16,932 bases of DNA from Fusobacteriota bacterium (GTDB lineage Bacteria > Fusobacteriota > Fusobacteriia > JAPLKR01): assembly GCA_026387965.1 (NCBI GenBank), contig JAPLKR010000073.1, positions 1-16,932 of the forward strand, in the 5' to 3' direction. Position 1 is the first letter of the stretch. The number at the start of each line of letters is the position of its first letter. A program made the translations under genes and the position numbers. The notes beneath the pieces are model-generated. The model worked only from the letters and a program-made list of their open reading frames with translations. It was not told where the DNA came from and searched no databases. Shown here in pieces: positions 9,410 to 13,823 of this stretch.

Positions 9410-9726
9410 AAGGGATAAGAGATAGTCGCAAGCGCAAGTTTGAGGAAAGTCCGGACTCCAAAAAAGTGAGGGCAGTTAACGGCTGCTGGAAGCAATTCTA
9501 AGGAAAGTGCCACAGAAAATAGACAGCCCGCAAGGGTGATGGTGAAACGGTGGTGTAAGAGACCACCAGTGCTATTCGAGAGAGTAGTAGCTAGGCAAAC
9601 CCCCTCTGGAGCAAGACCAAATAGAAAAGTTGAGAGACTTTTGGGTAGGTTGCTAAAGATGCGCAGTAATGTTCATCGTAGAGAAATGACTATCAGATAC
9701 AGAATCCGGCTTATACTTATCCCTTT
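9410..9726 (+). ncRNA. rnpB: RNase P RNA, bacterial type A
   Basis: This is the catalytic RNA of RNase P, which cuts the 5' leader from pre-tRNAs. The ends are set by a perfect 10-bp P1 stem, 9410-9419 pairing with 9716-9725. The conserved P4 5' half with GAGGAAAGTCCGGACTCC is at 9442-9459, and its partner ACAGAATCCGGCTTAT lies near 9699-9714. Between them are the GAAACGGTG and GTAAGAG segments of the specificity domain (9541-9560) and CTAGGCAAACCCC at about 9591-9603. The wording of these elements is that of type A, not the Bacillus type B. The length is about 317 bases. No strong terminator hairpin follows, only a T-rich run near 9733-9746, so some transcripts may continue into the glycosylase gene. 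Confidence 0.96.
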
Positions 9727-9760
9727 GTAGATATATATTTTTTAAATACGTAAGGAAATT

Positions 9761-10462
9761 ATGAAAACATTTTTAGAAGAATATAAAATTCACAAAAGTT
9801 ATCAAGCATTTTTTTCATCAAAAAGGGTTATGTGGATTGAAAAAACTTTAGAACTATTAGGTGATTACACACCTTCTAAGGAAAATATTTTTAAAGCGCT
9901 GAGTAGGGATATAAGCACAGCGAAAGTTATAATTTTAGGGCAAGACCCTTATCCACAAAAAGGTGCTGCAACGGGACTCGCATTTCAAGTTAGTGCAGCT
10001 AGTTGGCTAGACAAAGAGATCAACACATCTTTGAAAAACATTTTAAAATTACTTTATTTTAGTTATGAAAATAAAAGAGCTACGATTGAAGAGATTCGAA
10101 GTGAAATTTTGTTAGGAAAATTTTTGATTTCGGCACCTCATAAACTTTTAGATTCATGGCAAAGACAAGGTGTGATTTTACTTAATACTGCGTTAACTAC
10201 TAAGGTTTTAGAAGCTGGAAGTCACTTAAGTATATGGAAAGAGTTTACAAGTGATTTACTAGACTATATGGCGCATAAAAATCAAAATTTAGAATTTTTT
10301 TTGTGGGGGAACAAAGTTGCGCCATTTAAAAAATCGCTAAAATTTGGTAAAATAAGTGAGAGTAATCACCCAGCAATATGTGGAAATTTAGAAAACCCAA
10401 AAGATTTTTTAAATAATTTTTGTTTTATTGAGAGTCAAACAAAGATAGAATGGTTAAAATAA
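9761..10462 (+). CDS. ung: Uracil-DNA glycosylase, family 1-like
   Basis: It removes uracil from DNA to start base-excision repair. Family 1 landmarks are in order: the water-activating loop GQDPYP at residues 60-65 with Asp62, GLAFQVS with the stacking Phe (about 75), SLKNILK, LLNTALT with the uracil-binding Asn (about 142), and a C-terminal SNHPAICGN with His203. Two spots differ from the usual enzyme. The loop reads GQDPYP rather than GQDPYH, and the intercalation loop lacks the common HPSPLS wording. The region between SLKNILK and LLNTALT is longer than in E. coli Ung. All main catalytic positions are present, so an active enzyme is likely, but the symbol is by family. AAGGA precedes the ATG. 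The gene is followed by accB with its Shine-Dalgarno starting at the stop, so they are probably co-transcribed. Confidence 0.88.
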   Translation: MKTFLEEYKIHKSYQAFFSSKRVMWIEKTLELLGDYTPSKENIFKALSRDISTAKVIILGQDPYPQKGAATGLAFQVSAASWLDKEINTSLKNILKLLYFSYENKRATIEEIRSEILLGKFLISAPHKLLDSWQRQGVILLNTALTTKVLEAGSHLSIWKEFTSDLLDYMAHKNQNLEFFLWGNKVAPFKKSLKFGKISESNHPAICGNLENPKDFLNNFCFIESQTKIEWLK

Positions 10463-10472
10463 GGAGGATTTA

Positions 10473-10910
10473 ATGGAAATAAAAGAAATTGAAGAGTTAA
10501 TGGAGATCTTGAAAAAAAGCGATCTGTCATATATTTCACTAGAAAGACTCGATGGGAAACTCACATTAAAGAAAGCTTGTATTATAGAAGAGAAGCCAAA
10601 TAGAATTATAAATATCGAAGGCTATTCGCTTGAACATGATATTATTAATTCACCTGAAGGAGAGTCAAATATTATTGAAATTAAATCACTACAAATTGGG
10701 AAGCTTTATTATTCTAAGGGATTAGAAATTGGATCAATGATCACTGAAGGTGATATTATTGCAAAAATTAAAGCACTTGGCGTTCTTAAAGATGTTAAGA
10801 GTGCCGTAACGGGTAAAATTACTGAGCTTGTTGTAGCAGATGGAGAAGTAGTGGGTTATGGAAATATCATTGCAAGAGTTCATGTTGAAGGGGGAGTCGA
10901 GAATGTTTAA
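10473..10910 (+). CDS. AccB-like biotin carboxyl carrier homologue lacking the biotinyl-lysine
   Basis: The 145-residue protein has the AccB N-terminal helix pattern (MEIKEIEELMEILKKSDLSY) and a C-terminal biotinyl/lipoyl-type barrel (about 69-137). In this fold biotin is attached to the Lys of the EAMK(L/M) hairpin. Here the aligned turn reads IKALGVLKDV, putting Gly103 (codon 10779-10781) where the lysine should be. The following strand and GxVxEI-like part (GKITELVVADGEVVGYG) remain normal, so the alignment is firm. It also lacks the usual Ala/Pro-rich linker. It therefore cannot carry biotin in the known way. It may be a structural or regulatory subunit, loosely like plant BADC proteins, with another carrier elsewhere in the genome. 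AAGGAGG (10461-10467) precedes its ATG. Its end overlaps accC by eight bases, so it is surely translated with it. Confidence 0.85.
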   Translation: MEIKEIEELMEILKKSDLSYISLERLDGKLTLKKACIIEEKPNRIINIEGYSLEHDIINSPEGESNIIEIKSLQIGKLYYSKGLEIGSMITEGDIIAKIKALGVLKDVKSAVTGKITELVVADGEVVGYGNIIARVHVEGGVENV

Positions 10911-12246
10911 GAAGATTCTTATTGCCAATCGCGGAGAGATAGCGGTTAGAATAATTCGTTCAGCTAAAGAGCTTGGAATTAAAACAGTTGCAATTTACTC
11001 GGAAGCAGATAAAGAATCTCTACATGTTAGACTCGCGGATGAAGCCGTGTGTGTTGGGAGTACTTACGCGACAAATTCTTATTTAAAAATCCCTAATATT
11101 ATTGCAGCAGCAGAAATTACTGAGGCGGATGCTATTCATCCAGGATATGGGTTTCTTTCAGAAAATGAAGAGTTTGCCTCAATTTGTGAGTCTCACGGGA
11201 TTGTATTTATAGGTCCAACGGCAGAGTGTATCCATAAAATGGGAGATAAAGTTACAGCAAGAAAAACAGCTGAGAAATTTGGCGTTCCTGTTACACCTGG
11301 AACAAAAGATTTAGTTCAAACTGAAGAAGAAGCTGTTGAAATGGCTGGAAAAATTGGTTATCCTGTAATGCTAAAAGCAAGTTCGGGTGGCGGTGGAAAA
11401 GGGATGCGTGTTGCAAATAATGAAGAAGAAGTGCGCGCAAATCTTAAAATTTGTAAAAATGAAGCTATGGCAAACTTTGGAAATGATGATATGTATATTG
11501 AAAAATATATCCTTAATCCTAAACATATTGAAATTCAAGTTATTGGAGATAAATATGGAAATGCAATTCATCTAGGTGAGAGGGATTGTTCAATTCAAAG
11601 AAGAAATCAAAAGATGATAGAAGAAGCTCCCTCCATTATTTTAGATAGCGATCTTAGAAATAAAATGGGTGAGAGTGCCGTAAGAATAACAAAAGGAATT
11701 CATTATGATTCGGTGGGGACTTTTGAGTTTCTTGTGGACCAACATAAAAATTATTATTTTATGGAAATGAATACACGTGTACAAGTAGAACATACGGTAA
11801 CTGAGCTTGTTACAGGAATTGATATTATAAAAACTCAAATTATGATTGCTGCTGGTGAGAGACTCTCTGTAAGACAATCAGAAGTTAAACTATCTGGCCA
11901 CGCCATTGAGTGTAGAATTAATGCGGAAGACCCAAGTATGAATTTTATGCCTTCTGCAGGACTGATTACACACTATATTCCAAGTGGAGGACTCGGTGTG
12001 CGTATAGATAGTCATATTTTTAGTGGCTACGAGATTTCCCCTTACTATGATTCGATGATTGGAAAACTTATCGTGTATGGTGCCGACAGAGAAGAAGCTA
12101 TAGAGAGAATGAAAAGAGCTCTTGATGAGCATATCATCGAAGGTGTGAAGGTAACAACGCCATTTCTAAGAAAAATAATGGACGACGAAGATTACATCGC
12201 AGGAAAAGTATATACAAACTTTATTGATTTATTTATGAAAAAATAA
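10903..12246 (+). CDS. accC: Biotin carboxylase subunit of acetyl-CoA carboxylase
   Basis: It carboxylates biotin on the carrier protein with ATP and bicarbonate, the first half-reaction of malonyl-CoA synthesis. It has 447 residues, the normal size. The order is complete: N-terminal KKILIANRGEIAVRIIR, HPGYGFLSEN (79-88), Lys116 in MGDKVTAR, the glycine-rich ATP lid SGGGGKGMR (161-169), HLGERDCSIQRRNQK, and the catalytic EMNTRVQVEH. All catalytic residues I can locate are kept, in contrast with its AccB-like partner. I chose ATG 10903, preceded by GGGGGAG at 10890-10896 and giving the family N-terminus; the upstream in-frame start at 10858 lies within the accB-like gene. It overlaps that gene by eight bases. 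The asp23 gene follows at once. No accA/accD genes are here, so pyruvate- or propionyl-type carboxylases cannot be excluded as the user of this subunit. Confidence 0.93.
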   Translation: MFKKILIANRGEIAVRIIRSAKELGIKTVAIYSEADKESLHVRLADEAVCVGSTYATNSYLKIPNIIAAAEITEADAIHPGYGFLSENEEFASICESHGIVFIGPTAECIHKMGDKVTARKTAEKFGVPVTPGTKDLVQTEEEAVEMAGKIGYPVMLKASSGGGGKGMRVANNEEEVRANLKICKNEAMANFGNDDMYIEKYILNPKHIEIQVIGDKYGNAIHLGERDCSIQRRNQKMIEEAPSIILDSDLRNKMGESAVRITKGIHYDSVGTFEFLVDQHKNYYFMEMNTRVQVEHTVTELVTGIDIIKTQIMIAAGERLSVRQSEVKLSGHAIECRINAEDPSMNFMPSAGLITHYIPSGGLGVRIDSHIFSGYEISPYYDSMIGKLIVYGADREEAIERMKRALDEHIIEGVKVTTPFLRKIMDDEDYIAGKVYTNFIDLFMKK

Positions 12247-12256
12247 GGAGGGTGAA

Positions 12257-12634
12257 GTGATAGAAGGAAGAATAAAAATTGCAACGGATGTGGTTGCAGC
12301 CATTGCTGGAACCGCAGCACTACAAGTAAAAGGGGTTGTGGCTCTTTCGAGTAATACCGTTATTTCAGAGATACTTTCAAAACGTTCGCCTTCAAAAGGC
12401 GTTACGGTAAATGTGTCTGAAGATAGCTGCAGTGTAAGCGTTTCGGTTGTTGTAATCTATGGTATTGAAATTCATGCAGTGGCAGTGGATGTTCAAGAGA
12501 GCGTTAACAAAGCAGTGACACAAATGACGGGGCTTAAAGTTTCGGAAGTGAATGTATTAATAGAAGGAATTTCAGTAGAAAAAGAGAGAAAAGCTCAAAG
12601 TAAAAAAAATGAGCATGAAGTAGAGTCAATATAA
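12257..12634 (+). CDS. Asp23/Gls24 family envelope-stress protein (YqhY-like)
   Basis: This 125-residue protein of the Asp23 (DUF322) family opens with GRIKIATDVVAAIAGTAALQVKGVVAL, the characteristic segment, and continues with beta strands around VNVSEDSCSVSVSVVVIYG. It ends in a charged Lys/Glu tail. Relatives bind the membrane through AmaP and respond to cell-envelope stress. The Bacillus YqhY paralogue, also next to accBC, influences acetyl-CoA carboxylase activity. The GTG start at 12257 sits five bases after AAGGAGG (12245-12251). It lies ten bases after accC and precedes amaP, which supports both links: envelope and lipid synthesis. I infer the YqhY-like role from position. Confidence 0.9.
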   Translation: MIEGRIKIATDVVAAIAGTAALQVKGVVALSSNTVISEILSKRSPSKGVTVNVSEDSCSVSVSVVVIYGIEIHAVAVDVQESVNKAVTQMTGLKVSEVNVLIEGISVEKERKAQSKKNEHEVESI

Positions 12635-12665: not shown

Positions 12666-13193
12666 ATGTTTTTTCAAAAAACAGTTTATTTTATTTTTTG
12701 GATAATAAACTTTTTTGTTTCAGTAGTAATGATTATTGCGGCGGTTGACACACCTTTTGCAAGTCAATTTATTCAAGATTACACACCACACTATGCATTG
12801 CCGTTACTTGGAGATTATGGTCATCTAATACTTCTAATTGTTGGGATTTTTTATTTTATTTTAACGGTAAAACGAATTTCCTATAAAAGAGCTAATAGTT
12901 TTGCTGGAAAAAAAGCTCTAATAGCGACTTGCAGTGATGGTAGCAAAATTGAAGTATTATTTCAAACATTTAACGATGCCATGAAAGCTTATACTCAAGA
13001 GCTAGATTATGTAAAGAGAGCTAGCGTAATAACACTTGAAGGTAAAGAGGGCATAGAGGCTAAAATTAAGTTACAAGTGTTTGTAGAAGAGGGGTTGAAC
13101 AAAGAAGTTCAGGACCTTAAAGACGAGCTTGTAGATTATATTCAAAAAACTTTTGGTATTGTGATTAAAAAAATTGATATTATCTTAGTATGA
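12666..13193 (+). CDS. amaP: AmaP-like alkaline-shock membrane anchor protein
   Basis: The 175 residues contain two hydrophobic helices near the N-terminus (about 5-27 and 50-67) separated by a short loop. A soluble alpha/beta domain follows, with strand segments SKIEVLFQTF, YVKRASVITL and AKIKLQVFVEE, and the end IVIKKIDIIL. This matches AmaP, which anchors Asp23-type proteins at the cytoplasmic membrane and itself has an Asp23-like C-terminal half. GGAGG at 12657-12661 precedes the ATG. The 31-base gap from asp23 contains a 12-bp perfect palindrome (12640-12651) of unknown meaning. Neighbours on both sides are the usual partners. The gene symbol is by synteny and topology, since AmaP sequences diverge strongly. 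Confidence 0.82.
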   Translation: MFFQKTVYFIFWIINFFVSVVMIIAAVDTPFASQFIQDYTPHYALPLLGDYGHLILLIVGIFYFILTVKRISYKRANSFAGKKALIATCSDGSKIEVLFQTFNDAMKAYTQELDYVKRASVITLEGKEGIEAKIKLQVFVEEGLNKEVQDLKDELVDYIQKTFGIVIKKIDIILV

Positions 13194-13209: not shown

Positions 13210-13425
13210 ATGAATAATAGCACAAAAATTCGTCTTATCGGAATTGTTGTAGGTGTTGTGATAGGATTTTTACTAGTGACACTTGGGATTATAAAGCTTC
13301 TCATTATTGTGGTTTTTGGCATCGTCGGCTACTTTCTATCATTTGCAGATTGGAGCCCAGTGGGCGAAAGAATTCGTGAAATTTTTGGAAGGAGAGATGA
13401 ATGGGAGAAGGAAATAGACGATTAG
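13210..13425 (+). CDS. DUF2273 small membrane protein
   Basis: This 71-residue protein consists of two adjoining transmembrane segments (about 8-26 and 28-45), then FADWSPVGERIREIFGRRDEW, a basic, amphipathic cytoplasmic tail. DUF2273 proteins of this size are routinely found next to amaP and asp23, and a role in the same envelope-stress membrane complex is inferred. The ATG at 13210 follows GAAGGAG (13196-13202). Its end overlaps nusB by 25 bases in another frame. Confidence 0.85.
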   Translation: MNNSTKIRLIGIVVGVVIGFLLVTLGIIKLLIIVVFGIVGYFLSFADWSPVGERIREIFGRRDEWEKEIDD

Positions 13426-13823
13426 CACGAGAAGTATTATTTACAATACTATATCAAGCCGATATATTGAATAGTTATGAAAGTCAGCAGATTGTTGAGG
13501 TGATGGAATCACTGTCAACAGAGTTAAAGTTGCAAAAGCTCGTAGAGGCTGATAAAAAATTTATTTCCGAATATGTGAAAGAGGTACAAGAACATAAGAC
13601 TTCACTTCTTGCTACTCTCGAAAGTAAAATGAAAGATTGGAATATTGAGCGAGTTGGTTCTGTGGAACGTATTATTTTATTAATTGCAGCCTATGAACTT
13701 ACAATGAAATTAGATATAAATTATACAATAGTTATAAATGAAGCTGTTGAACTTGGAAAATGTTATGGAGATGATAAGACATCTTCATTTATAAATGGAG
13801 TACTCGCAAAATTTGTAAAATAA
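13401..13823 (+). CDS. nusB: Transcription antitermination factor NusB
   Basis: NusB binds boxA RNA with NusE (ribosomal protein S10) and supports antitermination in rRNA operons. The 140-residue all-helical protein begins with RRLAREVLFTILYQADI (Arg-rich helix that contacts RNA). It contains ERVGSVERIILLIAAYEL (close to the family's W…R…DR.ILR.A.YEL motif), then INYTIVINEAVELGKCYGDDKTSSFINGVL, the signature C-terminal half. The ATG at 13401 overlaps the DUF2273 gene, with AAGGAG at 13389-13394 upstream. It is the last gene of the accBC-asp23 run and is closed by a strong terminator. Confidence 0.95.
   Translation: MGEGNRRLAREVLFTILYQADILNSYESQQIVEVMESLSTELKLQKLVEADKKFISEYVKEVQEHKTSLLATLESKMKDWNIERVGSVERIILLIAAYELTMKLDINYTIVINEAVELGKCYGDDKTSSFINGVLAKFVK

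Follow-up and report, generated by a model that had tools for sequence, protein, structure and literature searches.

The window, by which we mean the whole stretch of DNA analysed (16,932 nucleotides; contig C11 in a genome of 1.79 Mb and 95% completeness), carries a gene for an AccB-like protein directly upstream of accC. Since this protein has glycine where AccB has its biotin-accepting lysine, we refer to it as Gly-AccB. The gene, its parts and its neighbours are the following:

10462..10467, + strand: Shine-Dalgarno-like AGGAGG ahead of the Gly-AccB gene (sequence inspection)
10473..10910, + strand: Gly-AccB, AccB-like protein of 145 aa without the lysine, ATG start (ORF translation, 4hr7 profile match, PF00364)
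10473..10577, + strand: N-terminal AccB-type domain, residues 1-35, predicted helix and two strands (conserved xIxxLMxILxxxxLTEI...K; AF2)
10680..10877, + strand: predicted beta-barrel domain of the biotinyl/lipoyl type, its acceptor lysine absent and its thumb shortened (PF00364; AF2; match to 1bdo)
10779..10781, + strand: GGC codon of Gly103, in the column of the biotin-accepting lysine (alignment; Gly in 80 of 80 aligned members and in G095)
10903..12246, + strand: accC, biotin carboxylase (TIGR00514, 713 bits against a cut-off of 626.5)
12257..12634, + strand: Asp23-family protein, in the YqhY position of the accBC-yqhY operon (PF03780, E 2.3e-26)
13401..13823, + strand: nusB, downstream in the same orientation (PF01029, E 2.9e-30)

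The stretch AKIKALGVLKDVKSAVTGK lies within the translation of the ORF at 10473-10910. The overlap with accC that had been noted from the sequence is real, as the stop codon of Gly-AccB occupies 10908-10910 and the ATG of accC begins at 10903, so that the two genes share 8 bases. The gene order (AccB-like, accC, asp23, with nusB next in the window) is that of the accBC-yqhY(asp23) operon of Bacillus subtilis, an arrangement that the accessible part of PMC5437119 describes as a conserved operon of Firmicutes and Fusobacteria. In that same part the B. subtilis AccB is reported as biotinylated, whereas Gly-AccB is predicted not to be biotinylatable at the usual site; we found there no mention of a missing lysine in an AccB of this operon. 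Between asp23 and nusB, positions 12666-13193 (+) encode a 175-aa protein with hydrophobic stretches at its start, which gave no match in a Pfam search and occupies the place where AmaP-like proteins might be expected. Upstream, a class A bacterial RNase P RNA (9410-9729, +; RF00010, 269.5 bits) is followed by a uracil-DNA glycosylase gene and then by the Gly-AccB gene.

The motif KALGVLKD of Gly-AccB aligns to EAMKLMNE, both in Escherichia coli AccB and in the normal AccB encoded by the same genome, which bears out the claim that Gly103 stands in place of the target lysine. The lipoyl-accepting lysine of GcvH and of lipoyl domains is missing as well, being replaced by the same Gly103. Judged from its sequence, Gly-AccB is unable to carry biotin at the usual site. 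The nearby Lys106 had been named as an alternative attachment site, an idea that did not survive comparison with the family: this position, three residues after Gly103, is a lysine in only one of 80 aligned members and mostly Thr or Asn in the others, which rules out biotin on Lys106 as a family trait.

In the remainder of the protein the AccB character is well preserved. A family profile built on 37 sequences aligns with E. coli BCCP (4hr7_B) over its full length (residues 22-176, E 7e-18), the N-terminal domain of full-length AccB included, and the window protein itself matches PF00364 with 27.1 bits (cut-off 22.1). An AF2 model, computed from an alignment of the window protein, named AccBs and a single other Gly protein (L314), predicts a confident barrel (pLDDT 93-97 over residues 71-140) in which Gly103 sits in the hairpin turn between strands 95-101 and 104-109, and, with moderate to low confidence, an N-terminal domain made of helix 3-15 and strands 24-26 and 29-31. 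In a structure search with this model the best PDB match was 1bdo, the biotinyl domain from E. coli, and the third was Arabidopsis BCCP1 (9a87). The flanking barrel had been described as normal. This applies to the predicted fold but not to the thumb, which is shortened to SKGLEIG where the genome's own AccB has TSASPDSPNYVKEGQ. Gly-AccB thus resembles the AccB/BCCP of heteromeric acetyl-CoA carboxylase (TIGR00531; 1bdo, 4hr7) in its full-length homology, predicted barrel and place before accC, and differs from it by the absence of the acceptor lysine, by xxhG (h, hydrophobic) in place of EAMK, by the shortened thumb and by a TIGR00531 score of 35.6 bits, below the curated cut-off of 115.2.

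As had been predicted, the true carrier is encoded elsewhere in the window genome: a normal AccB of 152 residues with EAMKLMNE, a lone gene on contig C125 (L001), which rules out a missing carrier. AccD and BirA are also encoded, GcvH is a separate gene (L003), and the accC of the window is the sole AccC match in the genome.

To what extent the substitution is shared by related genomes was a question left by the sequence-only reading, and the change turned out to be lineage-wide. Among 98 Fusobacteriia genomes, 81 encode an AccC at 62% identity or more, and all 81 possess Gly-AccB, with Gly every time; the gene lies directly upstream of accC in 80 of them, and in the remaining one (G095) the two genes lie at the ends of separate contigs. 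In Fusobacteriia genomes without accC, Gly-AccB was not found, apart from one truncated match at a contig edge in G068, a genome that is 71% complete. A normal AccB occurs in 79 of the 81 accC-bearing genomes, the window genome included, and the normal copies retrieved from Fusobacteriia carry EAMK. In G027 and G040, from two fusobacterial families, accD is present but a free normal AccB was not found; the one full AccB-type carrier detected there forms a fusion with a PycB-like protein and may serve acetyl-CoA carboxylase too. Two near-complete genomes of genus g10 (G017 and G059) have accD and lack both accC and a normal AccB.

Conservation at the critical residue is strict within an otherwise variable family. 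Only Gly76, Gly103 and Gly114 are invariant among 80 members whose median pairwise identity is 33% (effective number 29), and over 26 close pairs, not all of them independent, the median dN/dS is 0.16 (range 0.07-0.44) for Gly-AccB and 0.024 for AccC. The invariance of Gly103 at such low identity, together with the low dN/dS, indicates that glycine has been selected for at this position, beyond being merely tolerated in place of lysine. The loss of the lysine, the shortened thumb and a dN/dS above that of AccC are what one might expect of a decaying pseudogene or of an assembly or contamination artefact, but a gene that is intact in every accC-bearing fusobacterial genome, with an invariant Gly and dN/dS values in this range, leaves such an explanation next to no probability. 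Pseudogene decay, a frameshift and an assembly error are ruled out by the class-wide intact frames, the same Gly being found in all other fusobacterial genomes examined, and the earlier view of a maintained protein holds.

The AccC tree groups all Fusobacteriia into one clade (support 99) in which the window AccC is the deepest branch, sister to the rest (93), which implies that the Gly state dates back to the ancestor of the class. As a control, the lysine is retained in 77 of 77 accC-adjacent AccBs of other named contigs, mostly from Bacteroidota. A profile search covered 389 genomes, some 290 being from outside Fusobacteriia, and the best and two-copy cases were then inspected, a sample selected by similarity that is no census. 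In nine other families of this sample, lysine-less AccB-like proteins occur next to accC, with Gly (G331, G168/G309, G114/G261, G101/G249 and G223), Asp (G388 and G164), Glu (G125) or Ser (G215) in the lysine column; the accC start of G101/G249 lies some 360-380 bases downstream, near but not abutting. Two further lysine-less proteins have His (G376) or Asn (G239), the accC of both genomes lying outside the stretch retrieved. Several of these non-fusobacterial genomes encode a second, unlinked AccB with EAMK; in G376 and G239 the EAMK AccB is fused to a PycB-like protein, and in G331 the only carrier found is a 75-residue one with EAMKME, accD matches there being weak only. Concerning the number of origins, parsimony on the AccC tree requires 7 label changes, and in the AccB tree, where long branches meet, a single clade of all lysine-less proteins is not rejected (p-AU 0.68).

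The closest known parallel comes from plants, where BADC proteins are BCCP homologues without a biotinylation motif that stand beside a true BCCP, as Gly-AccB does. They differ in that BADCs are plastid-targeted proteins of the green lineage, while Gly-AccB is a bacterial protein whose gene lies in the accC operon. A 23-residue plant motif, CYIEQLGGQFPIESDVTGEVVKI, reported in PMC9578262 as a new biotinylation domain of Brassica proteins (orthologues of Arabidopsis BCCPL-2 among them), likewise has Gly in the column of Gly103. With this column removed, the motif, the only plant sequence compared, reaches 5.5 bits against the fusobacterial family, compared with 10.2-18.1 bits against lysine-bearing AccBs. 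Outside the Gly column it is therefore nearer to ordinary AccB, which makes convergence with BADC likelier than common descent. The comparison with BADC drawn by the sequence-only reading thus stands as an analogy, the same lysine being replaced and by Gly in the PMC9578262 motif, and Gly-AccB probably works in a similar way; shared ancestry is unsupported by the sole motif compared, and membership of the BADC family finds no support in these sequences. The roles proposed for BADC are those of a 'glue/cap' (PMC11926652) and of a competitor of BCCP for BC (PMC7712654). The idea of a non-catalytic subunit that aids assembly also exists for the AccE/epsilon subunit of bacterial acyl-CoA carboxylases (PMC11926652, PMC3199775), which is helical by description, whereas Gly-AccB is an AccB homologue, a distinction drawn from that description only.

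We propose that Gly-AccB is a maintained non-catalytic subunit of AccC, descended from the accC-linked accB and most likely involved in assembly, a reading to which we assign a probability of about 0.6. Its gene would descend from the accB that held the first place of the accB-accC-asp23-nusB locus. In the fusobacterial ancestor, Gly would have become fixed in the accC-linked AccB in place of the biotin-accepting lysine, a second, unlinked AccB would have retained the carrier function, and the Gly protein would have been kept as a non-catalytic subunit co-produced with AccC. It is predicted to bind AccC, and perhaps AccB, by way of the N-terminal domain and barrel surface that it has kept, and it might build or stabilise an AccC-AccB sub-complex, as proposed for the plant BADC 'glue'. 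A non-catalytic subunit of AccC is the simplest reading: both AccB domains are kept, the gene is translationally coupled to accC, and the protein comes and goes with AccC. Several observations count against the proposal. The thumb shortened in the window protein has been placed at the face of BCCP that contacts BADC (PMC11926652), Gly-AccB has a dN/dS about six times as high as AccC, indicating only moderate constraint, two of the 81 accC-bearing genomes, both about 82% complete, have no separate normal AccB, and the PycB-like fusions of G027 and G040 indicate that a free AccB need not be the partner in every case.

The same complex could be imagined to work in the opposite direction, Gly-AccB filling the AccB site on AccC as a competitive inhibitor or rheostat, with the Gly-AccB:AccB ratio setting acetyl-CoA carboxylase activity. 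For plant BADC, competition with BCCP over access to BC has been described (PMC7712654), and since AccB and Gly-AccB are encoded on different contigs in the window genome, their ratio could vary. However, translational coupling to accC would fix the ratio of inhibitor to enzyme, the strict co-occurrence with accC better suits a structural subunit, and PMC11926652 argues that its own plant data do not fit an inhibitor model. An inhibitor made at a fixed ratio from the operon of its own target would be wasteful, for which reason we favour the assembly role and regard inhibition as unlikely.

The PycB-fused AccB-type carriers of two fusobacterial families make a docking adaptor conceivable, whereby AccC-bound Gly-AccB would let one AccC serve either free AccB or AccB-type carriers fused to PycB/OadA-like carboxyltransferases. 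G027, G040, G376 and G239 all have accD and a PycB-fused normal carrier, while their single AccB-like protein lacks the lysine; yet a free normal AccB exists in most Fusobacteriia, the window genome included, and the accC of G376 and G239 lies outside the stretch retrieved, so that we hold this function to be distinctly improbable. In these four genomes (L302 in G040, L306 in G027, L267 in G239 and L268 in G376) a PycB/OadA-like carboxyltransferase bears, at its C-terminus, a complete AccB-type carrier that has its own N-terminal domain. In E. coli, AccB affects the transcription of accBC; BirA, for its part, binds apo-BCCP. Resembling an AccB that stays unbiotinylated, Gly-AccB might accordingly act on accBC expression or as a non-modifiable decoy for BirA, but the hairpin recognised by BirA differs strongly, with xTxG in place of EAMK, and a search for a DNA-binding domain in Gly-AccB found none, which leaves such regulatory mimicry very improbable.

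Returning to the non-catalytic subunit, it is tempting, if still rather doubtful, to extend it into a broader scheme in which a non-biotinylatable AccB-type subunit would be obligate to biotin carboxylase throughout the class, the arrangement having arisen or been inherited in several other lineages, with AccC as a shared docking module and the whole as a bacterial counterpart of plant BADC. In the accessible parts of the open-licence papers searched, we found no description of a lysine-less AccB in bacteria. If such a subunit exists, annotating the accC-linked gene as a biotin carrier misleads in the whole class, relatives of Fusobacterium and Leptotrichia included, and the accBC operon by itself would not suffice to rebuild the enzyme. 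It would also provide a simple bacterial system for the plant BADC debate on whether such proteins build or brake. A carrier look-alike without the lysine, found in every accC-bearing genome of the class, suggests that the enzyme initiating fatty-acid synthesis has a hitherto undescribed non-catalytic component.

Some other AccB-like proteins are also worth describing. In several non-fusobacterial genomes (L193, L241, L179, L185, L153 and L160) a divergent accC-linked AccB that still has the lysine, within EAMKHKNE, EAMKVENK, EAMKIRHD or EAMKIIKD, occurs together with a second, unlinked AccB, and these pairs are possible intermediate stages. Finally, a 144 aa ORF on the minus strand of L243 (G219), with no adjacent accC within the stretch retrieved, encodes an AccB-like protein with KAMNLEN, and thus Asn in the lysine column; the same genome encodes a normal AccB as well.
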